Of a stretch of DNA of 41,947 nucleotides, positions 10,172-34,567 are shown piece after piece (within the stretch, counting starts at the first letter, position 1; every line of letters starts with the position of its first letter). The translations under genes were made by a program, and so were the position numbers. The stretch is from a virus: the IMG/VR virus record IMGVR_UViG_3300021961_000206, positions 1 to 41,947 of that record, one strand, 5' to 3'. The notes below the pieces were generated by a model, which saw nothing but the letters and a program-made list of their open reading frames with translations, did no database searches and had not been told where the DNA came from.

Positions 10172-10417
10172 ATGGCATTGAGTAATAAATCATCTAGATT
10201 CGCTTCACCGGCAACGGAAAATCCTTTAAATAATAGTTATCAAACTTCTTTATTCGAGGAGAAGGCAGGGTCTCTCTCTGCTTATGCTGGTTTTGAAGCT
10301 AATAATAACGGTATGGTACCGGGCGGTACTTTAGAGTATACTTCTCCTCCCGTTCCTACAACCACCACTACAACGACGACTACTACTAGTACTACAACCA
10401 CCACAACAACTGTATAA
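10172..10417 (+). CDS. Small structural-type protein with Thr-rich C-terminus
   Basis: An 81-residue protein. Residues 1-60 (MALSNKSSRFASPATENPLN...) are Ser/Asn/Gly-rich, as in phage virion proteins. Residues about 63-80 are almost pure Thr with one Ser, after a Pro (PVPTTTT...). The Thr codons are mixed (ACC, ACT, ACA, ACG), so the tract is kept at protein level and is not simple DNA slippage. The tail resembles the mucin-like stalk of the 29951 protein and may be glycosylated or act as a linker. No known family. Confidence 0.65.
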   Translation: MALSNKSSRFASPATENPLNNSYQTSLFEEKAGSLSAYAGFEANNNGMVPGGTLEYTSPPVPTTTTTTTTTTSTTTTTTTV

Positions 10418-19058: not shown

Positions 19059-19478
19059 ATGGCGAAATTAGATGCACTTAGAAAAATTATTCGCGAAGAA
19101 GTTCGAACAGTATTCCAAGAGGAACTTGCCGGAATTCTAAAAGAAGCTATTATAGCGAATAAAGGACACCAGACTATTACTGAGTCTGTGAAAACTACAC
19201 CTGTACCTGCTACATTGAATAGGTCTATTCCTCGACCTGTAGCACCCGTGTTAGGTCCGAATAACCCACTAAACAGCCTTTTGGCTGAAACTGCTCGATC
19301 AATGTCTCCGGAAGACTTCGGAGTTTACGGTGGACAGACATTAGAAAGAGATGCTCCGACTGTAGAGTCTGTAGATCAAATGTTTGCTAGCGCTAGAAAA
19401 AGTTCTAACTTCGAAGCAATTGAAATTAATGCAATTCCAGATTTTTCTGCTGCAATGGCTAAAATGAATATCCTCTAG
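19059..19478 (+). CDS. Hypothetical baseplate-region protein, 139 aa
   Basis: A 139-residue protein. The N-terminal 35 residues are a charged helix, MAKLDALRKIIREEVRTVFQ then EELAGILKEAIIANKGH, which includes an ILKE|A sequence like the leader pattern elsewhere. The rest is Pro/Ser/Asn-rich with little predicted structure. It is followed by gp25 with a 1-base overlap. It may be a linker or assembly protein of the wedge. Confidence 0.65.
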   Translation: MAKLDALRKIIREEVRTVFQEELAGILKEAIIANKGHQTITESVKTTPVPATLNRSIPRPVAPVLGPNNPLNSLLAETARSMSPEDFGVYGGQTLERDAPTVESVDQMFASARKSSNFEAIEINAIPDFSAAMAKMNIL

Positions 19479-19888
19479 TGGCATATAACTTAAGAAATAT
19501 TAACGTATTAGACTTAAGACCTTCGGTAGGAATCGGAGTTGCATTACCTTTTAATACTCCCGCAGTATTTCAAACAGTATATACAACTAGAGAACAACTG
19601 AAGTATAACTTGATTAACTTTCTTTTAACAGATAAAAGAGAGAGAATCTTTAATCCAAATTTTGGAGCAGACATTAGAAAACAGTTATTTGAGCAAATTA
19701 CAGCCGATACTTTTGATGTTTTGGATACTCAAATTAGAGCTGGAATAGAGCAATATTTTCCGAATGTAGCTATTACAGATCTTGTTATAGGAGCAGAACC
19801 GGATAAGAACTTATTAACAATTCAGTTTTCATATACTATAGCTAATACAGGCGAGTCAGATAATGTAATATTAAATCTCAATGGCTAA
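19478..19888 (+). CDS. Baseplate wedge protein, gp25-like
   Basis: A 136-residue protein starting at GTG 19478, which overlaps the previous TAG by 1 base. The gp25/lysozyme-like fold signature is clear: an N-terminal segment followed by LINFLLTDKRERIFNPNFGA (about residues 47-66; family pattern LL(T)x..ER...P.FG) and a C-terminal strand region (LLTIQFSYTIANTGES). In T4, gp25 joins the inner wedge and triggers sheath assembly. It overlaps the gp6 gene by 8 bases, as expected for partners in one complex. Confidence 0.88.
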   Translation: MAYNLRNINVLDLRPSVGIGVALPFNTPAVFQTVYTTREQLKYNLINFLLTDKRERIFNPNFGADIRKQLFEQITADTFDVLDTQIRAGIEQYFPNVAITDLVIGAEPDKNLLTIQFSYTIANTGESDNVILNLNG

Positions 19889-21740
19889 CAAAGATATACG
19901 GTATTTAAATAAAGATTTTAATAGCTTCAAGGAAGCGTTGATAGAGTATGCAAAAGCATACTACCCTAATTCTTATAACGACTTCTCAACCTCTTCTCCC
20001 GGTACTATGTTCATCGACATGGCTTCATATGTAGGAGATGTTCTTTCTTTTTACTTAGATAACCAGGTACAAGAGACGTTCTTAGAGTATGCAAAACAGA
20101 CTAATAATCTTTATGCATTAGCTTATATGTTAGGTTATCGACCTAAAGTAACTTCTGCTGCTATTGTAAATTTAGATATCTATCAACAATTACCAGCCTC
20201 GGGTGCTAGCTATCTTCCTGACTTTAACTATGCTTTGACTATAGACGAGGGAATGCAAGTTAGGTCTAATATCAATAATTCTAACTTTTTTTACTGTCCT
20301 AATAAAGTAGATTTTAATCTATCCTCTTCGATAGATACAACAGATATTTCTGTGTATACTACTGTAGGAGGTAATCCAAATACGTACCTACTAAAGAAAA
20401 CTACGCCTGCTATCTCAGGACAGGTTAAAACAACTACCTTAACTTTTGGCGCAGCAGAAAGGTTCCCAATAAGAACTATCGAAGATACGAACATTATTGA
20501 GATTTTAAGTGTAGTAGATAGCAACGGCAATAAATGGTACGAAGTACCCTATTTAGCTCAAGACTATATACTGAATCCAGTACAGAATACTTCTACGAAT
20601 TACCCACAGTTGTATCAAGAAGCTAATCAAGTTCCATACGTTTTAGAGAAAATAGAAGTACCGAGAAGATTTGTATCTAGGTTTAAAACTAATACTCTTT
20701 TAGAACTTGAATTCGGAGCTGGTATAACTGCAGTATCAGGATCGATACCAAATCCATTTAATGTAGGTATAGGAACAGTAAACGGAATTGATCTTTTAAA
20801 TACTGCTTTTGATCCGACAAACTTTGTAACTAACGATTCTTATGGATTAGCTCCAGTAAATATAACACTAAATATAACATACTTAGTAGGAGGAGGAGCA
20901 GCAGCAAATGCTCAAATAAACGAATTAACGTATATCTCTTCTATTAGTTCTAATTTTACGCATCCTGTAAATCCTGGAGTTGCTACAACCATACAAAACT
21001 CTGTAGCTACAAACAACACTACTAGAGCTGTTGGTGGTGGAGACGGTGATACACCGGAAAGCTTAAAGTTAAATACTTTAGCAATGTTCCCTTCTCAGAT
21101 GAGAGCTGTAACGCAGCAAGATTATCTCGGGATGGTCTTAGGAATGCCTCCTAAATTTGGACAAGTAGCTAAGGCTTATGTGACTAAAGATACAGCAACT
21201 TTTGCTCAATACCTAGTTGGAGAACCAGGAGAAAGAGATCCTCTCGCTACTTCTATTTACTTACTTAGTTATAATACTGCAGGACAGTTTACTGATCCAG
21301 GACCTGCTTTGCTTAAAAATATTCAAACTTATTTAGGGCAGTATAGAATGCTCACAGATACAGTTATTTTAAAGCCTGCTTATATAGTAAACATTCAAGT
21401 TAATTTTGATATTATAGTAAGGCCGAATTATACTTCTAGGGATGTTATCGCTAATTGTCTAATAGCTTTAAAAGCTTACTTTAATAGAGAGAATTGGCAA
21501 ATTAACGAACCTATTATTATATCTGAAATCTATACACTATTGGATCAGATAGCTGGTGTGCAGACTGTCCAGAAAGTACAGATTAATAATATCGCAGGTA
21601 CCGGACAAGGTTATTCGCAGTATAGTTATGATATACCAGGAGCAACATTAAATGGAATTATTTATCCTTCTCTAGACCCAAGTGTCTTTGAAGTTAAATA
21701 TCCAGATGTTGATATTAAAGGACGCGTAGTAACAATGTAA
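19881..21740 (+). CDS. Baseplate wedge protein, gp6-like (gpJ family)
   Basis: A 619-residue protein. The N-terminus (DIRYLNKDFNSFKEALIEYA, SSPGTMFIDMASYVGDVLSF, QTNNLYALAYMLGYRP) is the signature of gp6/gpJ baseplate wedge proteins. The middle contains GGDGDTPESLKLNTLAMFPSQ and RAVTQQDYLGMVLGMPP, as in the gpJ domain. In T4, gp6 forms the continuous ring of the inner baseplate. The length is close to the family value of about 600-660. Confidence 0.9.
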   Translation: MANKDIRYLNKDFNSFKEALIEYAKAYYPNSYNDFSTSSPGTMFIDMASYVGDVLSFYLDNQVQETFLEYAKQTNNLYALAYMLGYRPKVTSAAIVNLDIYQQLPASGASYLPDFNYALTIDEGMQVRSNINNSNFFYCPNKVDFNLSSSIDTTDISVYTTVGGNPNTYLLKKTTPAISGQVKTTTLTFGAAERFPIRTIEDTNIIEILSVVDSNGNKWYEVPYLAQDYILNPVQNTSTNYPQLYQEANQVPYVLEKIEVPRRFVSRFKTNTLLELEFGAGITAVSGSIPNPFNVGIGTVNGIDLLNTAFDPTNFVTNDSYGLAPVNITLNITYLVGGGAAANAQINELTYISSISSNFTHPVNPGVATTIQNSVATNNTTRAVGGGDGDTPESLKLNTLAMFPSQMRAVTQQDYLGMVLGMPPKFGQVAKAYVTKDTATFAQYLVGEPGERDPLATSIYLLSYNTAGQFTDPGPALLKNIQTYLGQYRMLTDTVILKPAYIVNIQVNFDIIVRPNYTSRDVIANCLIALKAYFNRENWQINEPIIISEIYTLLDQIAGVQTVQKVQINNIAGTGQGYSQYSYDIPGATLNGIIYPSLDPSVFEVKYPDVDIKGRVVTM

Positions 21741-28853: not shown

Positions 28854-29939
28854 ATGTCATTTACAAGACTTGCTCCAACAGATTTTGTGATTAGCTCGGA
28901 CTCTATTACAGCTCCGGCTTGGAGTGCTAATCAACCCACGTTAACAACTTTTTATACCGCATCCTCTATCACCTCCACTACCATTACTCAAGGAGCTTTC
29001 TATTTGAATGTCTACCAAACACAGAGTACTGCGACAGGAGCTGCTGTGCAATTCGCTATTGCATACGGTAATATTAATGGTTCTGGATCTCAGTGGTATA
29101 ACCCGCTTGTTCCTGGTGTATCTCCTTCCTTAACAACCTACAGACAGTATGAAACCCTTGTTTACGGTCCAGCCCTTTCCGGCTCCTTACAAGGATTTAA
29201 TTTCGGAGGTCTTGCTACAAACGCTCCTGATATCTTCGCTATAAACGTAGACAGAAACAGGTATAAAGAGAGTTTGATGCCAGGTACTTTTAATTTAAGC
29301 CTTTCAAGTTCTGCAGGAGAAATTACCCTTTGTGATAATAGTAATGACGTTACAACTGTTACATACTTAGACTGTGGTAGGGTTTTTAACCTTGTTTCCG
29401 GTTCTTACGGAAGAGCTACTACAACAACTAGTGCCGGACAAATAGCTCCAGGTTATACCGCTTCCGGTTCTTATGGTTTTTACCTTCCCGATATCGGTAC
29501 TATACTCTTAAATGCTAGTGCCCTTAATCTATCTGCTGTTCAAGGAGGAATCGGATTACCAGTAGATAGGTCTAACTACGGATCAGGTAGCTACTCTCTT
29601 AATGCTTCTGCTTCTTATACTTCTACCAATAACACAGTACTCTTCCAAGCTATTTCAGCTAGTAAAGAGTTTGAGTTAAACTCTCAAGAGACTATCTCAT
29701 CTGATTACGTCTTTGTTAGAATTGGTAATGCTGATTATAACTACTCAACCAATCCGACATTCGTATCTGGATCAGGTGAAGTATTATATTCAACTATGAT
29801 ATACAGTCCACAAACCTATATCACAACTGTAGGAATGTACAACAATAATAGTGAACTTTTAGCAGTAGCTAAAATGTCTAAACCTCTTGTAAAAGACTTT
29901 ACGAAGGAAGCACTTATACGTGTAAAACTCGACTGGTAA
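28854..29939 (+). CDS. Virion structural protein with a duplicated C-terminal module, 361 aa
   Basis: A 361-residue Ser/Thr/Tyr-rich beta protein (MSFTRLAPTDFVISSDSITA...). The N-terminal part has FYLNVYQTQS and TTYRQYETLVYGPA. The last 80 residues (NADYNYSTNPT, then TTVGMYNNNSELLAVAKMSK) form a module that recurs in the 33710 gene. Likely a tail fibre, whisker or decoration protein. It is followed 11 bases later by the mucin-like 29951 protein. Confidence 0.65.
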   Translation: MSFTRLAPTDFVISSDSITAPAWSANQPTLTTFYTASSITSTTITQGAFYLNVYQTQSTATGAAVQFAIAYGNINGSGSQWYNPLVPGVSPSLTTYRQYETLVYGPALSGSLQGFNFGGLATNAPDIFAINVDRNRYKESLMPGTFNLSLSSSAGEITLCDNSNDVTTVTYLDCGRVFNLVSGSYGRATTTTSAGQIAPGYTASGSYGFYLPDIGTILLNASALNLSAVQGGIGLPVDRSNYGSGSYSLNASASYTSTNNTVLFQAISASKEFELNSQETISSDYVFVRIGNADYNYSTNPTFVSGSGEVLYSTMIYSPQTYITTVGMYNNNSELLAVAKMSKPLVKDFTKEALIRVKLDW

Positions 29940-29950
29940 TAAAATAATTC

Positions 29951-31318
29951 ATGAGTAGATCATCAAATAGCCTTAAAACATCTGATGTCATTACTACTCC
30001 GATCAAACTGGTATACACTTCGTCGTACGACTGTAGTACACTTGCGGAGTATGGAATGGAGGTTTTGAGTGGAGTGAATGGCCCTGTGACTATAACAGGC
30101 TCTGTTCCACAAGAGACTTTAAACTATTGGTCTACTAGACATCTTTACTATTCTAACTACCTTACCGGATCATTTCCAGTTTCTGCTTCAAGCGCAGATA
30201 ACTTTTTACAGTCTACAGCTGCTTCCGGTTCTTTAGATTCAGATAATAGGTATTTTCCTACTGAATCAAATGCCCGTATAACTATATTGTCGGTACCGAG
30301 AGGAGTATTTGGCGAAAAGATTGCTAAGAGTAATTTTATACTCTCTTCTTCTGCTTACTATATAATAGATGACGGAAACGGTAACCTTATAGATCAAGCA
30401 TCAGGAAGTCTGCATGTAGGCAATATTATTTATCCACAAGGAATGGTTATTTTTACCAATCCTAATTATTTGGATATTTTACCATGTCCTACCGGGTCAA
30501 CTACTACGACAACCTCTACTACAAGTACAACGACTACTGCTGTTCCGACAACTACTACAACTTCTACTACAAGTACTACGACTACTGCTGCTCCGACAAC
30601 CACAACTACGAGCACAACTACTAGTACAACAACAGAGGTACCTACCACGACTACTACTAGTACGACTACTAGTACAACAACAGCAGAACCTACTACGACA
30701 ACTACTAGTACAACAACGAGCACAACAACTTGTGCTCCACAGAATGCGCAAAGTATGTACTATAATTACGATACTGGATTACCTACAATGTTCGGAACCG
30801 GTTCTGCCGAAGCCGCTTGTAATTTATCAGTTAGTGCTTCTACCATATACTATAATACTTCGTTAGCGCTTACTACAGGCACACCTTTATACTATGATGA
30901 ATGTCTTACTGTACCAATAACAGCTAGTGCTTATACAGATACTCCTCAACAATACTTTAAAATTGGTCCATACTACGTAAATTTTGAAACTGATGGATAT
31001 ACTGTAAGAAGTGTAACAGCTTGTCCTACTCCGACTACAACCACCACTACATCTACAACTACTAGTACAACTACGGTAACATATACTTACTATGCTGTAG
31101 ACAGGTATACTTGTGATTCACCATCAGGACCTTGTACTTTCGCTGAATCAACCTTTATAGCAAACACTTCTAGCGGGTTAACTCTAGGTAATTACTACTT
31201 AGATGTACCTTCAGGAAACATTTATAATATCACGTCTACTACAAGTAGTGGCGCTTATTTTATAACATATCTATCTGGAGCTGGTACTGCCAACTGTAGT
31301 GTTCTTTGTTCAGCTTAA
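29951..31318 (+). CDS. Virion protein with a mucin-like Thr/Ser/Pro repeat stalk
   Basis: A 455-residue protein in four parts. Residues 1-183 are a beta-rich Ser/Tyr domain. Residues 184-263 are five tandem units of exactly 16 residues of the type TTTTTSTTTSTTTAEP. Then comes a Cys-containing domain (about 264-358), a second Thr tract (about 360-377) and a second Cys-containing domain ending in CSVLCSA. The Thr codons are mixed, so the repeats are selected at protein level. This is the shape of a mucin stalk: Ser/Thr-dense, Pro-spaced, without bulky residues. The next three genes look like glycan-building enzymes, so the stalk is a candidate for O-glycosylation. Role in host contact is inferred. 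Confidence 0.75.
   Translation: MSRSSNSLKTSDVITTPIKLVYTSSYDCSTLAEYGMEVLSGVNGPVTITGSVPQETLNYWSTRHLYYSNYLTGSFPVSASSADNFLQSTAASGSLDSDNRYFPTESNARITILSVPRGVFGEKIAKSNFILSSSAYYIIDDGNGNLIDQASGSLHVGNIIYPQGMVIFTNPNYLDILPCPTGSTTTTTSTTSTTTTAVPTTTTTSTTSTTTTAAPTTTTTSTTTSTTTEVPTTTTTSTTTSTTTAEPTTTTTSTTTSTTTCAPQNAQSMYYNYDTGLPTMFGTGSAEAACNLSVSASTIYYNTSLALTTGTPLYYDECLTVPITASAYTDTPQQYFKIGPYYVNFETDGYTVRSVTACPTPTTTTTTSTTTSTTTVTYTYYAVDRYTCDSPSGPCTFAESTFIANTSSGLTLGNYYLDVPSGNIYNITSTTSSGAYFITYLSGAGTANCSVLCSA
30500..30739 (+). repeat. Five tandem 48-base units encoding 16-residue Thr/Ser repeats
   Basis: The 240-base block codes for five 16-residue units ending in AVP, AAP, EVP, AEP and CAP. Synonymous codons differ between units, but the unit length is exact. 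Confidence 0.9.
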
Positions 31319-31337
31319 AAAGTAAATAAAATTTGTT

Positions 31338-32333
31338 ATGAAAAATCTACGTTACATTTGTGCACAACCCAGGCTAATATACTATGCTTGGCAGGTTGAG
31401 GTTATGATTAATAACTTTATCAAACAAGGAATCAATCCAAATAATATTGATATTCTTGTTGCCTGGAATCCAGAAGATAAGACATCTACTCCTGAAAATA
31501 TAGAGGCGTGGACTAAGTTAGCTGAATCTTACAACAGTGTCCGTTTTTTCTTTTATAGAGATACTAGACAACAGCCGATTCACTATATCTCTTCAGTACG
31601 TCCAAATATTCTCAAACAGCATTTTGCAGCACATCCTGAATTAGAAAAAGAAGCTATCTTTTATCACGATTCAGATATCGTCTTTACTAAGAAGCCTGAT
31701 TGGAGTTCTTTACTTGAGGATGATATTTGGTATTTAAGTAACACTAATAGCTATATAAACTACGATTACATTGTCTCAAAAGGACAAGATGTCTATGATA
31801 AAATGTGTGAAATAGTTGGAATAGATCCTATCATACCCAAACTATTAAATTCAAACTCAGGAGGAGCTCAGTATATTTTAAAAAATGTTAATTATACGTA
31901 TTGGGAGAAGGTAGAGAGAGATTGCGAGAAACTGTTTAAGGAAATAACTGACTTAAGTAATGAAAAAGTACAGCTAGATAAACATACAGTATCAGAAGAT
32001 GTAGCAAGAAGTCCATATCATCCTTTGCAGATATGGTGTGCTGATATGTGGGCTGTATTATGGAATGGATGGTTACTAGGAAATGAGACTAAGGTAGTAC
32101 CGGAGATGAATTTTAGCTGGGCTACGGATAGTATACAACGGTGGGAAGAGACGACAATTTTTCATAACGCAGGCGTTACTTGTTCATGCGGTAGACAGTT
32201 TTATAAAGCTAATTATATAGAAAGTTTACCTTATAGTATAGAGCAGAGCAATTACAGAGACGTTACTTGCGGGTATAATTACGTTAAAGAAATAATCGAA
32301 ACATCTCAAAAATCATGTTTAATACAAAAGTAG
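31338..32333 (+). CDS. GT-A type glycosyltransferase
   Basis: A 331-residue protein. It has an N-terminal segment RYICAQPRLIYYAWQVEVMI then NNFIKQGINPNNIDILVAWN (nucleotide-sugar-binding type), a metal-binding DxD motif in IFYHDSDIVF (about residues 107-116, DSD at 111-113) and a late HNAGVTCS region. The layout recalls plant and algal hydroxyproline arabinosyltransferases and Ser galactosyltransferases, which modify Thr/Ser/Pro-rich proteins. The exact donor and acceptor are unknown. It starts 19 bases after the mucin-like gene stop and overlaps the methyltransferase gene by 19 bases. Confidence 0.75.
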   Translation: MKNLRYICAQPRLIYYAWQVEVMINNFIKQGINPNNIDILVAWNPEDKTSTPENIEAWTKLAESYNSVRFFFYRDTRQQPIHYISSVRPNILKQHFAAHPELEKEAIFYHDSDIVFTKKPDWSSLLEDDIWYLSNTNSYINYDYIVSKGQDVYDKMCEIVGIDPIIPKLLNSNSGGAQYILKNVNYTYWEKVERDCEKLFKEITDLSNEKVQLDKHTVSEDVARSPYHPLQIWCADMWAVLWNGWLLGNETKVVPEMNFSWATDSIQRWEETTIFHNAGVTCSCGRQFYKANYIESLPYSIEQSNYRDVTCGYNYVKEIIETSQKSCLIQK

Positions 32334-32833
32334 TACATTCAGAAAATCCTTTAGAGCATTGGTCTGATATAAAAGACGTGGAAGGGAAAGTAGTTTTAGA
32401 TTTAGGTTGCGGATGGTTATTTCAGCCGCATGAATCGACTCCAGAATACCTAATAAATCGGGGTGCTAGTAAAGTTGTAGGAGTGGATGTAGCTTGTGGC
32501 GAAATCGAGCAGCTAAAAGAAAAGTACCCTGGACACGTCTTTGTATGTAAAGCAGTTACAAGCGTAGAAAGTCTTTTAGAACTTCTAGTTGAATATCAAC
32601 CCTCCGTAATTAAAATGGATATAGAAGGTCATGAAGCTCATATGCAGTATATAACAGCAGAGCAATTTTCTTGTGTAGAAGAGATTGCTGTTGAATATCA
32701 TAACCCAGAATGTAAAAGAATATTGACTGAAAAATTAGATGAATTTGGTTTTGAGATTTTCTCAATAAACCAGTTCGGATGGTTTTGTACTGATATTAAT
32801 CAGATGGGAATAATGCACGCTAAAAGAAAATAA
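32315..32833 (+). CDS. FkbM-type SAM-dependent methyltransferase
   Basis: A 172-residue protein with class I methyltransferase motifs: VVLDLGCGW (residues 26-34, SAM-binding loop), KVVGVDVACGE (motif II) and IKMDIEGHE (residues 99-107), which is the FkbM-family DIEGxE signature. FkbM enzymes usually methylate sugar hydroxyls. It overlaps the glycosyltransferase gene by 19 bases, which suggests coupled expression and a shared substrate. The family is shorter than usual here but has all core motifs. Confidence 0.8.
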   Translation: MFNTKVVHSENPLEHWSDIKDVEGKVVLDLGCGWLFQPHESTPEYLINRGASKVVGVDVACGEIEQLKEKYPGHVFVCKAVTSVESLLELLVEYQPSVIKMDIEGHEAHMQYITAEQFSCVEEIAVEYHNPECKRILTEKLDEFGFEIFSINQFGWFCTDINQMGIMHAKRK

Positions 32834-32834
32834 A

Positions 32835-33707
32835 GTGGAAATAATAAAAGCTACATACGGAGGAGTTGATTGTATTGAAAAGATACGAGCTAAAATAAAC
32901 GGAAATAAGCTTATAATTCGTTCTAGTAATGACATTATAGGAGACACTCAACCAGGAGTTGTGAAGTATCTAGATCTTACGATAGAAAATAAAGGAGTAA
33001 CTACTGTTCATAGTATTAAAGAGCATAACCTCTTTGTATTTCCTCAATCAGAACACGAGAGATTGGGGATATTCTATTCAAATAATAATAACAGTACTAT
33101 ATACCCTGCAATTAAAGCATCGTTAAAATCAATTCTAAAAGCGTCTGAGAATAAGGCTGATATTTTAACGTGTATGTGGCAGCATGAACCTGAAAATCCT
33201 TTTCCGGAGTTTATCGCCTGGACCCATACTTGTAGCCATTTAAACCAATTACTTCAAGTAATGCAATTGCTTTACCAAGCAAGAGAGATTAACAAATACA
33301 AGTACGTTTCTTTCTTAGAACACGATGTATTATATCCAGAAGGTTATTTTGATTTTCCTGAATTTGAAGAAGGAAGTGTAATGACAAATATGAATTACAT
33401 GGGTATTAATTCTGAAGGATTTCAACCGCTAGGACAGAAAGATGAACCTTTTCATCAAATGACAATGAGGTTTGATGAAGCAATTCGACATTGCGAGTCG
33501 ATATTATCTAATGCTCTTATTCGAAATGCTGGACTTATAGAACCTCAAACCCTGATACGAAAGCAGTGGGAATCTAATCACCCTGCAATACACGTAAATC
33601 ACGGGAAACACTTTACTTCTCATTATAACGTTTACACAAAGAATGTTTTTCCGGAACACAACTACTGGGGCTTACATAAGGATGTTTGGCCGTTTTACTA
33701 TTTATAA
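32835..33707 (+). CDS. Glycosyltransferase-like protein with small N-terminal beta domain
   Basis: A 290-residue protein starting at GTG 32835, one base after the methyltransferase stop. The first about 50 residues (IIKATYGGVDCIEKIRAKIN, then SSNDIIGDTQPGVVKYLDL) resemble a DUF3395-like beta domain (YG....D.T.....GDP.PG..K.L). The second part has KYKYVSFLEHDVLYPEGYFD (about residues 156-175), a GT-A-like metal site (EHD in place of DxD), and late HVNHGKHFTSHYNVY with possible ligands. I infer a second glycosyltransferase or hexose-transferring enzyme acting with 31338 and 32315. Confidence 0.6.
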   Translation: MEIIKATYGGVDCIEKIRAKINGNKLIIRSSNDIIGDTQPGVVKYLDLTIENKGVTTVHSIKEHNLFVFPQSEHERLGIFYSNNNNSTIYPAIKASLKSILKASENKADILTCMWQHEPENPFPEFIAWTHTCSHLNQLLQVMQLLYQAREINKYKYVSFLEHDVLYPEGYFDFPEFEEGSVMTNMNYMGINSEGFQPLGQKDEPFHQMTMRFDEAIRHCESILSNALIRNAGLIEPQTLIRKQWESNHPAIHVNHGKHFTSHYNVYTKNVFPEHNYWGLHKDVWPFYYL

Positions 33708-33709
33708 GT

Positions 33710-34081
33710 ATGCCATCGTACGCACCATATACATTAGATCTAGGAGCTGAAACTACAATTTACGTAAATGAAGTAAAATGTAGAGTTTTAGAGAATGATT
33801 TTAATTATTCCCAGAACCCTACTGTATTCAAAGCAACTACTCTTATTACAGGTTCTTCTGCATTACCTTTTTATGCACCAGAAAGCGGTTCCGCTATAAA
33901 CGGTCAAATTGTAGACGGTACCCTAGCCGATAATATAACAGGATCTTCCTTTCACCCCTACGCAACTACTGTAGGACTTTACAACGAAGCTAACGAGTTA
34001 CTTGTTATCGGAAAATTAGCTACTCCTTACCCTATTCCTTCTAATACAGATATAACTTTTATTGTTAGATGGGATAGTTAA
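33710..34081 (+). CDS. Small virion protein, paralogue of the 28854 C-terminus
   Basis: A 123-residue protein from ATG 33710, chosen over an upstream frame-open ATG at 33686 that would overlap the previous gene. It carries NDFNYSQNPTVFKATTLITG and TTVGLYNEANELLVIGKLAT, which align with the last 80 residues of the 28854 protein. So it is a stand-alone copy of that module, probably a virion part. A TATTTATA motif overlaps the end of the preceding gene (33699-33706). Confidence 0.7.
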   Translation: MPSYAPYTLDLGAETTIYVNEVKCRVLENDFNYSQNPTVFKATTLITGSSALPFYAPESGSAINGQIVDGTLADNITGSSFHPYATTVGLYNEANELLVIGKLATPYPIPSNTDITFIVRWDS

Positions 34082-34099: not shown

Positions 34100-34567
34100 A
34101 TGACTGAAAAATGGTTTATATATGAAGGCGGTTTCGTAAAAGAGTACGATTCTGTCGATAAATTCCCTGAAAAATGTGTAGGTTTCGTGTATAAGATTAC
34201 CAACATAAAGACTGGTAAATTCTACATCGGTAGAAAATCTCTTTTTTCAAATACCAAGAAAAAACTAACTAAGAAAGAACTTGCCGAACACGAGGGTCCG
34301 GGCAGAAAACCTACAAAAAAGCTTGTAACTAAGGAATCTAACTGGCAAGATTACTGGGGATCTAATAAAACTATCTTAGATGAAATTAAGCAGACTGGAT
34401 CTCAAGACTTCCGTAAAGAAATACTTAAGTTCTGCTTTAATAAAAAACAACTTACTTACTGGGAAGTGCATTATCAGTGCATAGAAGGAGTTCTCATGTC
34501 GGATAAGTCTTACAACGACAATATCTTAGCTAAGTTTTTTCGCAAAGATTTGGAAATCTCAGAATAA
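34100..34567 (+). CDS. GIY-YIG nuclease-like protein
   Basis: A 155-residue protein with CVGFVYKITNIKTGKFYIGR (residues 26-45), a GIY-YIG motif with VYKI and FYIG, followed by NWQDYWGSNKTILDEIKQ and KEILKFCFNKKQLTYWEVH with the downstream catalytic Glu. Similar proteins in T4-like phages are annotated as GIY-YIG endonucleases. It may be a free-standing homing-type nuclease or a DNA-processing enzyme. It is followed by the primase gene. Confidence 0.8.
   Translation: MTEKWFIYEGGFVKEYDSVDKFPEKCVGFVYKITNIKTGKFYIGRKSLFSNTKKKLTKKELAEHEGPGRKPTKKLVTKESNWQDYWGSNKTILDEIKQTGSQDFRKEILKFCFNKKQLTYWEVHYQCIEGVLMSDKSYNDNILAKFFRKDLEISE

Follow-up and report, generated by a model that had tools for sequence, protein, structure and literature searches.

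A candidate virion O-glycosylation module behind a threonine-tract gene in a contractile-tailed phage

The viral DNA analysed here (IMG/VR record IMGVR_UViG_3300021961_000206, 41,947 nucleotides, hereafter the window) probably encodes a virion O-glycosylation module in which, judging from sequence and modelled folds, one glycosyltransferase (GT1) would prime poly-Thr tracts and the enzymes of an exchangeable slot behind it would elaborate the glycan. An initial annotation had proposed that the phage builds a methylated O-glycan on a mucin-like tail stalk, and that reading of the module is partly supported by the present analysis.

The threonine-tract protein and the enzyme genes behind it

The relevant features of the window are as follows, with the evidence for each in brackets.

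10172..10417, + strand: 81-aa protein whose C-terminus is a poly-Thr tail, a possible second substrate (sequence; tandem repeat at 10356-10410)
19478..21740, + strand: two baseplate wedge genes, structural context
28854..29939, + strand: conserved gene before the stalk gene (profile cross-hits indicating a domain in common with 33686-34081)
29951..31318, + strand: Thr-tract ('stalk') protein, 455 aa (sequence; relatives of its N-terminal domain)
30500..30739, + strand: five Thr/Ser/Pro units of 16 residues (translation, Tandem Repeats Finder)
31031..31087, + strand: second Thr tract (translation, Tandem Repeats Finder)
31338..32333, + strand: GT1, predicted GT-A glycosyltransferase of the PHROG 4417 family (profile match, AlphaFold model, invariant motifs)
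32315..32833, + strand: putative class I methyltransferase whose resemblance to FkbM stays below cut-off (motifs, sub-threshold profile matches)
32835..33707, + strand: GT2, predicted second GT-A glycosyltransferase (fold match over approximately residues 72-255)
33686..34081, + strand: conserved gene closing the variable cassette (profile cross-hits with 28854-29939)
34100..34567, + strand: GIY-YIG (SegE-like) endonuclease adjoining the cassette, context only (Pfam)

The stalk protein consists of an N-terminal domain (aa 1-180), a Thr tract (184-263), a Cys-containing middle, a further tract (361-379) and a C-terminal domain. The first tract is built of five units, in order TTTTTSTTSTTTTAVP, TTTTTSTTSTTTTAAP, TTTTTSTTTSTTTEVP, TTTTTSTTTSTTTAEP and TTTTTSTTTSTTTCAP, within which Thr accounts for 55 of 80 residues; all four Thr codons are mixed there, and Tandem Repeats Finder reports a period of 48 bases. 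The exact 16-residue units and varied codons of the initial annotation are confirmed, as is its second Thr tract between Cys-containing domains, which lies between a stretch bearing Cys 261/290/318/358 and one bearing Cys 388/395/449/453. Per 80 residues the Thr fraction reaches 0.70 in the stalk protein versus 0.25 in the next-best of the six-frame ORFs of at least 100 aa in the window, and the protein has the dense Thr/Ser/Pro tandem repeats taken here as the mark of a mucin-like sequence. Its N-terminal domain found one weak match in the isolate-phage collection, from an uncultured phage. The baseplate wedge genes indicate a contractile-tailed phage, and because they lie upstream, the stalk protein is probably structural and associated with the tail or baseplate; the firm placement on the tail that had been proposed goes beyond what this gene order supports.

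A second protein with a Thr tail, absent from the initial annotation, is encoded at 10172-10417 and ends in PPVPTTTTTTTTTTSTTTTTTTV. A scan for its viral relatives was overwhelmed by matches to the Thr pattern itself, and its first 60 residues matched in 0 of 19 related records, a search that had no positive control and from which nothing follows.

GT1 begins 19 nt after the stalk gene, overlaps the methyltransferase gene by 19 nt, and the latter is separated from GT2 by 1 nt, in agreement with the close packing of the three enzyme genes described earlier. The PHROG 4417 profile matches GT1 over residues 5-322 (E 1.6e-63), which places it in a family annotated without known function. D111/D113 (the DxD motif) and H276-N-A-G279 are invariant across 45 GT1 relatives, and the AlphaFold model (pLDDT 96.0) adopts a GT-A fold. 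Among the matches listed, the closest solved folds are glycogenin (VIA Z 15.3, rmsd 3.3, 229 aligned), LgtC (VIA Z 14.5, rmsd 3.7, 239 aligned) and UGGT (VIA Z 14.2, rmsd 3.8, 245 aligned), the first two of which we take to be GT8 and the third GT24. These enzymes have the GT-A fold and DxD in common with GT1, at an identity of 7-12% across the best 50 matches listed, with a single entry at 13%. At the sequence level none of the 45 GT1 members matched a Pfam glycosyltransferase family at E 0.1, and GT8 membership fails; a sequence search of solved structures gave no match at E 1. For the plant enzymes invoked in the initial annotation, the Hyp/Ser glycosyltransferases, no Pfam match to them was obtained and none appears among the best 50 entries of either fold list. 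With high confidence, the model identifies GT1 as a GT-A glycosyltransferase with a conserved DxD, as had been suggested.

The third gene had been read as glycosyltransferase-like, and we likewise assign GT2 to the GT-A glycosyltransferases with high confidence on the basis of its predicted structure (pLDDT 92.5; Z 14.9, rmsd 2.6, 166 aligned to a Leptospira glycosyltransferase). The middle enzyme is a putative class I methyltransferase, carrying VLDLGCG at residue 27 and DIEGHE at residue 102, with Pfam matches below cut-off only. Its earlier assignment to the FkbM type is rejected at curated cut-offs, as PF05050 gave no match and TIGR01444 scored 17.5 bits against a cut-off of 37.7.

Threonine tracts and the GT1 family across relatives

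The association of GT1 with Thr tracts was examined in several sets of loci. Among relatives of the stalk protein (n=69), GT1 is found with 13 of 15 Thr-rich regions versus 2 of 54 others at a Thr fraction of at least 0.55, one of five thresholds tried, with p <1e-6 at all five. Relatives that keep the repeats and lack the enzyme had been named as evidence that would count against the module; there are 2 in 15 at the threshold of at least 0.55 (L148 and L181 carry tracts without GT1 in this set) and 0 in 11 at at least 0.65. GT1 without a tract occurs at L169 and L170 of the same set and at L031, L034 and L036. In records picked by hand, (ACN)8 tracts are absent from eight large GT1-less relatives (811,780 bases) and present in 7 of 8 GT1-bearing records; in this comparison the reversed pattern matched 17 times in G024 and once in G031. 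In an independent, Enterococcus-type group anchored on a tail protein, Thr tails occur in 3/3 GT1-positive and 0/7 GT1-negative loci, a small comparison (MTP, n=10) in which locus L382 stops short of the capsid-position gene. As such, the comparison of related phages proposed in the initial annotation comes out in its favour, the tract following GT1 in the stalk set, the large records and the independent group. A tree-based test was weak: it gave eight independent pairs, only three of them on well-supported branches, and for these the result was not significant (sign test, p 0.25).

A set of Firmicutes-type loci anchored on GT1 shows Thr of at least 0.60 in 67 of 71 (one of the 72 loci, not labelled GT1, was dropped); of the four negatives, L441 has no tail and the other three have shorter ones. 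We give this set no weight because it is highly redundant, 53 Thr-rich ORFs having identical last 40 residues.

The GT1 family is also present in 74 isolate-phage records (Lactobacillus, Enterococcus, Staphylococcus, Lactococcus, Chryseobacterium and others). GT1 regions from 19 of these all contain a tract with Thr of at least 0.40 per 20 aa, and 12 of the 19 reach at least 0.60; near GT1 the tract often forms the C-terminus of a capsid or tail protein. Cultured phages with GT1 and a Thr tail include Lactococcus phage 1706, in which a Thr run followed by HHD closes a tail protein, and Enterococcus phage phiFL1A. When Thr-tract DNA was sought independently of GT1, the enzyme lay within 300 nt downstream in 11 of 84 loci (0 of 118 for the reversed-pattern control) and anywhere in the locus in 13 of 120. 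The Thr-tract proteins beside or near GT1 fall into about 19 sequence groups, and GT1 therefore tracks the tracts rather than one particular protein.

Two other explanations of this association deserve consideration. The enzymes might modify a different target, such as phage DNA or host envelope glycans, with the Thr-tract gene adjacent as shared cargo of the tail region. Of 39 bacterial GT1 relatives, 37 are found away from Thr tracts; lysis-type and phosphoesterase genes, instead of Thr-tract genes, neighbour GT1 in a large group of loci; and phage glycosyltransferases acting on DNA or host antigens are described in passages of PMC12619734. We nonetheless consider this improbable, given that GT1 and Thr tracts co-vary across whole records and in unrelated neighbourhoods, and that most whole GT1 records checked without a neighbouring tract have one elsewhere: 25 of 80 GT1 loci lack a tract in the locus, and whole records from two GT1 locus sets contain one elsewhere in 10 of 13 cases. 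For that check 14 records were picked by hand, of which L127 has no GT1 in its locus and L090 and L115 are near-copies; the reversed pattern matched six times, in four records. Alternatively, the tracts could carry no glycans and serve as flexible linkers, or be slippage-prone repeats with no particular function. Low-complexity repeats arise easily, and of 60 Thr-tract loci not truncated downstream, 48 lack GT1 there. The mixing of four Thr codons in the window tract and the way tracts follow GT1 presence argue against this, and among seven GT1-less tract loci picked by eye five adjoin another glycosyltransferase above the Pfam cut-off; we regard it as very unlikely.

Exchangeable genes after GT1

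The slot after GT1 varies among relatives, holding interchangeable glycosyltransferases and methyltransferases; 12 of 20 cassette genes picked for sampling match Pfam families of these two kinds above cut-off. It is conceivable, if rather unlikely, that GT1 glycosylates the tracts while the methyltransferase and GT2 do something else, which would leave the stalk without a methylated glycan. The methyltransferase reaches no sugar methyltransferase family at a curated cut-off, and neither it nor GT2 has a relative in the isolate-phage collection, whereas GT1 does. Against this, the two genes share a tightly packed set at three related loci (the window, of which L001 and L002 are near-copies, L003 and L007) and recur behind GT1 in another virus group, and the slot in other relatives holds different glycosyltransferases and methyltransferases, including true FkbM domains in two of them.

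Relation to known systems and proposed role

The initial annotation knew of no phage mucin with dedicated enzymes of its own. Taken as a statement on phage-encoded glycosylation of virion proteins in general, this was too strong; mycobacteriophages (Che8, Corndog, Myrna) glycosylate their own virions, according to Freeman 2023 as cited in PMC12619734, PMC11652166 and PMC12363180, where the citing passages give capsid and tail-tube proteins as targets and C-termini as the glycan sites. Phage virion glycosylation is thus already known, and the present system would be a variant of it. Like the window, Che8 encodes more than one glycosyltransferase (gp108-110), but its capsid and tail proteins lack Thr tails, and what distinguishes the window is its repeat tracts, the position of its enzyme genes immediately after the candidate substrate gene, and its exchangeable cassette. 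A close relation of GT1 to gp108-110 was rejected, their best score being 4.3 bits and that of the window protein 454.8. Our search of the open-access literature, with subscription papers mostly outside its scope, found no paper pairing phage Thr tracts with a glycosyltransferase, and a survey of low-complexity regions mentions phages and makes no such link in the passages seen (PMC6821194).

Among the Foldseek matches of GT2 is a glycosyltransferase of chlorovirus PBCV-1 (PDB 2p6w/2p73; E 1.3e-4, a weak, fold-level likeness), described as glycosylating that virus's own major capsid protein; unlike the window phage, PBCV-1 is a eukaryotic virus. Mucins are eukaryotic secretory proteins in which Cys-containing domains flank tandem Thr/Ser/Pro repeats of constant length, and the stalk protein resembles them in this arrangement, as read from its translation.

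We propose that GT1 would recognise Thr-rich tracts and place the first sugar on Thr/Ser, and that the exchangeable downstream genes, here the methyltransferase and GT2, may extend and cap the glycan. The main substrate in the window would be the Thr-tract protein encoded upstream, perhaps joined by the 81-aa protein at 10172. Elsewhere the family may modify capsid and tail proteins at their poly-Thr tails. Once glycosylated, a tract could act as a spacer or coat that is extended, hydrated and resistant to proteases, and the variable enzymes would shift its glycan chemistry from relative to relative.

We also lean, with less assurance, towards a broader interpretation, in which PHROG 4417 would be a polypeptide O-glycosyltransferase family widespread among phages, for which poly-Thr serves as a portable tag on capsid, tail-tube or tail-appendage proteins, the cassette in the lineage of the window giving a phage-specific surface glycan. 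So read, the family and its cassette would be the phages' equivalent of mucins and O-antigen variation. The occurrence of GT1 relatives near Thr runs on head and tail proteins in many phages suggests that a self-made sugar coat is common among them. A family listed as function-less would gain a concrete function, testable in GT1-family phages already in culture, and a Thr tract together with GT1 may offer a simple sequence sign predicting glycan-bearing virion proteins, which bears on how phages encounter mucus, host surfaces and proteases.

Enzymes and Thr-rich proteins of the window

The five exact 16-residue Thr/Ser/Pro units and the second tract described by the initial annotation are both present in ORF 29951-31318 (the stalk protein), the Thr content of which is unapproached by any other ORF of at least 100 aa in this 41,947-base IMG/VR virus record. 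Three enzyme genes follow it, as closely spaced as had been claimed. The first, GT1 (31338-32333), belongs to PHROG 4417, a family listed as of function unknown. Its AlphaFold model, built from 45 relatives, reached a pLDDT of 96.0; UGGT chains top the Foldseek list (5n2j_A, E 4.5e-8), and by VIA-align the model aligns to glycogenin (Z 15.3, rmsd 3.3, 229 aligned), LgtC (Z 14.5) and UGGT (Z 14.2). Both D111 and D113 of the DxD are invariant among relatives, as is an HNAG motif, and the predicted fold together with the invariant DxD argues for the glycosyltransferase originally proposed. The second glycosyltransferase-like protein, GT2 (32835-33707), likewise held up, its model (pLDDT 92.5) matching GT-A enzymes over approximately residues 72-255. 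The gene between them (32315-32833) is methyltransferase-like, as suggested, but its assignment to the FkbM type did not stand, those models matching below cut-off only. Judging from its baseplate wedge genes, the phage is contractile-tailed.

A further Thr-rich protein, absent from the initial annotation, lies ~20 kb from these genes:

10172-10417, + strand: second poly-Thr protein, 81 aa, with a C-terminal Thr tail

It is a possible second substrate. No relatives of it were found, in a viral scan that was swamped by its own Thr pattern and a 19-record check that lacked a positive control.

Thr tracts and GT1 in related viruses

Among 80 loci kept of the 295 GT1 relatives found in IMG/VR (near-copies included, such as L001 and L002, which match the window GT1 at 100%), an ORF with Thr of at least 0.60 in 30 aa lay directly upstream of GT1 in 48, elsewhere in the locus in 6, nowhere in 25, and was not visible in 1; for the closest 44 loci these classes held 37, 2, 4 and 1. 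The majority of the 25 tract-less loci form a group with a different neighbourhood. Gene order in the window's lineage runs from a large tail-region gene through two conserved genes, the Thr-tract protein, GT1 and one to six variable genes (the cassette) to a conserved gene, a GIY-YIG endonuclease and a primase. Fourteen whole records drawn from the GT1-anchored and GT2 sets were searched for (ACN)8, a run of eight Thr codons; 11 contained such tracts, in frame as Thr-rich ORFs, a count corrected to 10 of 13 GT1 records because the L127 locus is without GT1.

Loci were also fetched by the stalk N-terminal domain rather than by GT1, with 80 kept of at least 169 and 11 of these dropped as their downstream region was not seen (n=69). 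Joint variation of tract and enzyme, for which the initial annotation had proposed comparing relatives, was largely borne out: at Thr of at least 0.55 in 30 aa, one of five thresholds tried, 13 tract-bearing loci had GT1 and 2 lacked it, versus 2 and 52 below the threshold (Fisher p 2.7e-10), although L169 and L170 (GT1 without tract) and L148 and L181 (tract without GT1) break the pattern. At 0.65 and 0.70 the counts were 11 and 0 versus 4 and 54, and at 0.50 they were 13 and 7 versus 2 and 47. As these rows share descent, a tree of 58 rows was drawn on a neighbouring gene; it carried 8 changes of tract and 9 of GT1, with 8 independent pairs, 3 of them on starred branches, for which GT1 went in the same direction 2.7 times on average and in the opposite direction 0.0 (sign test p 0.25). 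Across 16 whole records picked by hand, (ACN)8 tracts occurred in 7 of 8 GT1-positive records (752,794 bases) versus 0 of 8 large GT1-negative ones (811,780 bases; p 0.0014), and a record-wide search of the latter found no GT1 anywhere. The tract is present in 44 of 104 distinct stalk proteins, at lengths of 18-257 residues (median 91.5).

In one clade (L031, L034, L036, L169, L170 and L171) the stalk is shortened to ~176 aa and has no Thr tract; GT1 is kept in five of these six loci and missing in L171. Perhaps the tract was lost first and the enzyme afterwards.

IMG/VR was also scanned for (ACN)12, a run of twelve Thr codons, blind to GT1, which gave 120 loci, 84 containing a Thr-tract ORF. 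GT1 lay within 300 nt downstream in 11 of the 84 and elsewhere in 1; it was absent from 48 with sufficient downstream sequence, the other 24 being cut off downstream. With one extra locus having GT1 without a tract ORF, GT1 occurred in 13/120 loci versus 0/118 for the reversed-pattern control (p 0.00017; 7 loci common to both sets). As such, GT1 is strongly enriched next to Thr tracts, yet most viral tracts use something else or nothing. Seven neighbours of GT1-less tracts, picked by eye, comprised five with a Pfam glycosyltransferase match above cut-off, one below it and one radical SAM protein.

Thr-tract proteins of other viruses (L303, L306, L373, L325 and L337) adjoin unrelated glycosyltransferases (PF00535, PF11397); tract and glycosyltransferase may have come together on more than one occasion.

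Isolate phages and the diversity of tract proteins and cassettes

GT1 relatives are contained in 74 isolate-phage records. All 19 of the regions fetched have an ORF with Thr of at least 0.40 in 20 aa, and 12 reach 0.60. The major tail protein of phiFL1A, gp50, has the C-terminal end NGTTTTTSTTTTTTSSTTTTTTTQASSK and GT1 as the next gene; the end of gp45, annotated as conserved hypothetical and probably the capsid protein by gene position, is similar. Enterococcus phage 4995_1 carries the Thr tail on its annotated major capsid protein, followed by GT1. In Lactococcus phage 1706 two proteins carry it, the major tail protein and orf10, which is annotated as a head maturation protease. LP65 gp51, with GT1 two genes later, has a Thr-rich tail, and its annotation, 'structural protein 2-D,MS', is the one hint of a Thr-tailed protein inside a virion. 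With the phiFL1A tail protein as anchor (10 loci), the Thr tail was present in 3/3 loci with GT1 and 0/7 without (p 0.008); the three also have Thr tails on the capsid-position protein. The L382 locus does not extend to the gene at the capsid position.

In Staphylococcus phages VB-SauS-SA2 and RQ1 (L460:14600-14960, L465:14560-14960) a short in-frame Thr run closes the major tail protein, and an overlapping other frame carries on with a much longer tract; this looks like a programmed frameshift that would yield short and long tails.

As to INDEPENDENCE of substrate, blastp (Thr/Ser runs masked, E 1e-4, at least 40 aa) sorts 67 Thr-tract proteins encoded next to GT1 or close to it into 19 groups, some of which distant relations may merge; the tailed protein of bIL285 lies five genes from GT1. 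GT1 nonetheless tracks the tract, not any single protein. The genes after GT1 also vary from relative to relative. Twenty were hand-picked for Pfam, some from loci outside the window's lineage: above cut-off there were five glycosyltransferases (families 2, 6 and Gly_transf_sug), seven methyltransferases (two FkbM), one radical SAM protein and one adenylylsulphate kinase, the rest being one glycosyltransferase below cut-off and five without match.

The kinase (L070:6014-6481) stands immediately after GT1, with a Thr-tract protein nearby in the same virus, and sulfation of the glycan is possible there. Radical SAM/SPASM proteins adjoin Thr-tract genes at L074:10918-12000 and L262:1865-2911, one with GT1 and one without. 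In the window, 28854-29939 and 33686-34081, which flank the stalk and cassette, have a common domain by profile cross-hits, and this duplication could help cassette exchange. Exchange could also be driven by the SegE-like GIY-YIG endonuclease (34100-34567) that adjoins the variable cassette in most lineage loci. The PHROG that this endonuclease matches best, 447, bears the name NAD synthetase, apparently through mislabelling.

Proposed glycosylation of the tracts

From the sequences, the predicted folds and the co-variation of tract and GT1, we infer that GT1 would act in the host cytoplasm, transferring the first sugar onto Thr/Ser of the tracts, and that the cassette enzymes would extend and methylate that glycan; the substrate, the sugar, the order of steps, the place in the virion and the benefit are all putative. 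Of 39 bacterial loci with GT1 relatives, almost all bearing the name of a Bacteroidota genus in their titles, 37 lie away from Thr tracts, so in cells the family may act on something else.

In mycobacteriophages, phage enzymes are known to glycosylate virions, as described in papers that cite this work (PMC12619734, PMC11652166, PMC12363180), and a Rhodococcus phage paper already takes a glycosyltransferase and methyltransferase as a hint of it (PMC13313380). The enzymes of mycobacteriophage Che8 differ from GT1, and its capsid and tail proteins, unlike the tract proteins of GT1 phages, have no Thr tails. No paper on the Thr-tract/GT1 pairing was found in the open-access literature searched, subscription papers being mostly outside its scope. 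Virion glycosylation by phage enzymes is already known; the pairing of Thr tract and GT1 would be the new part.
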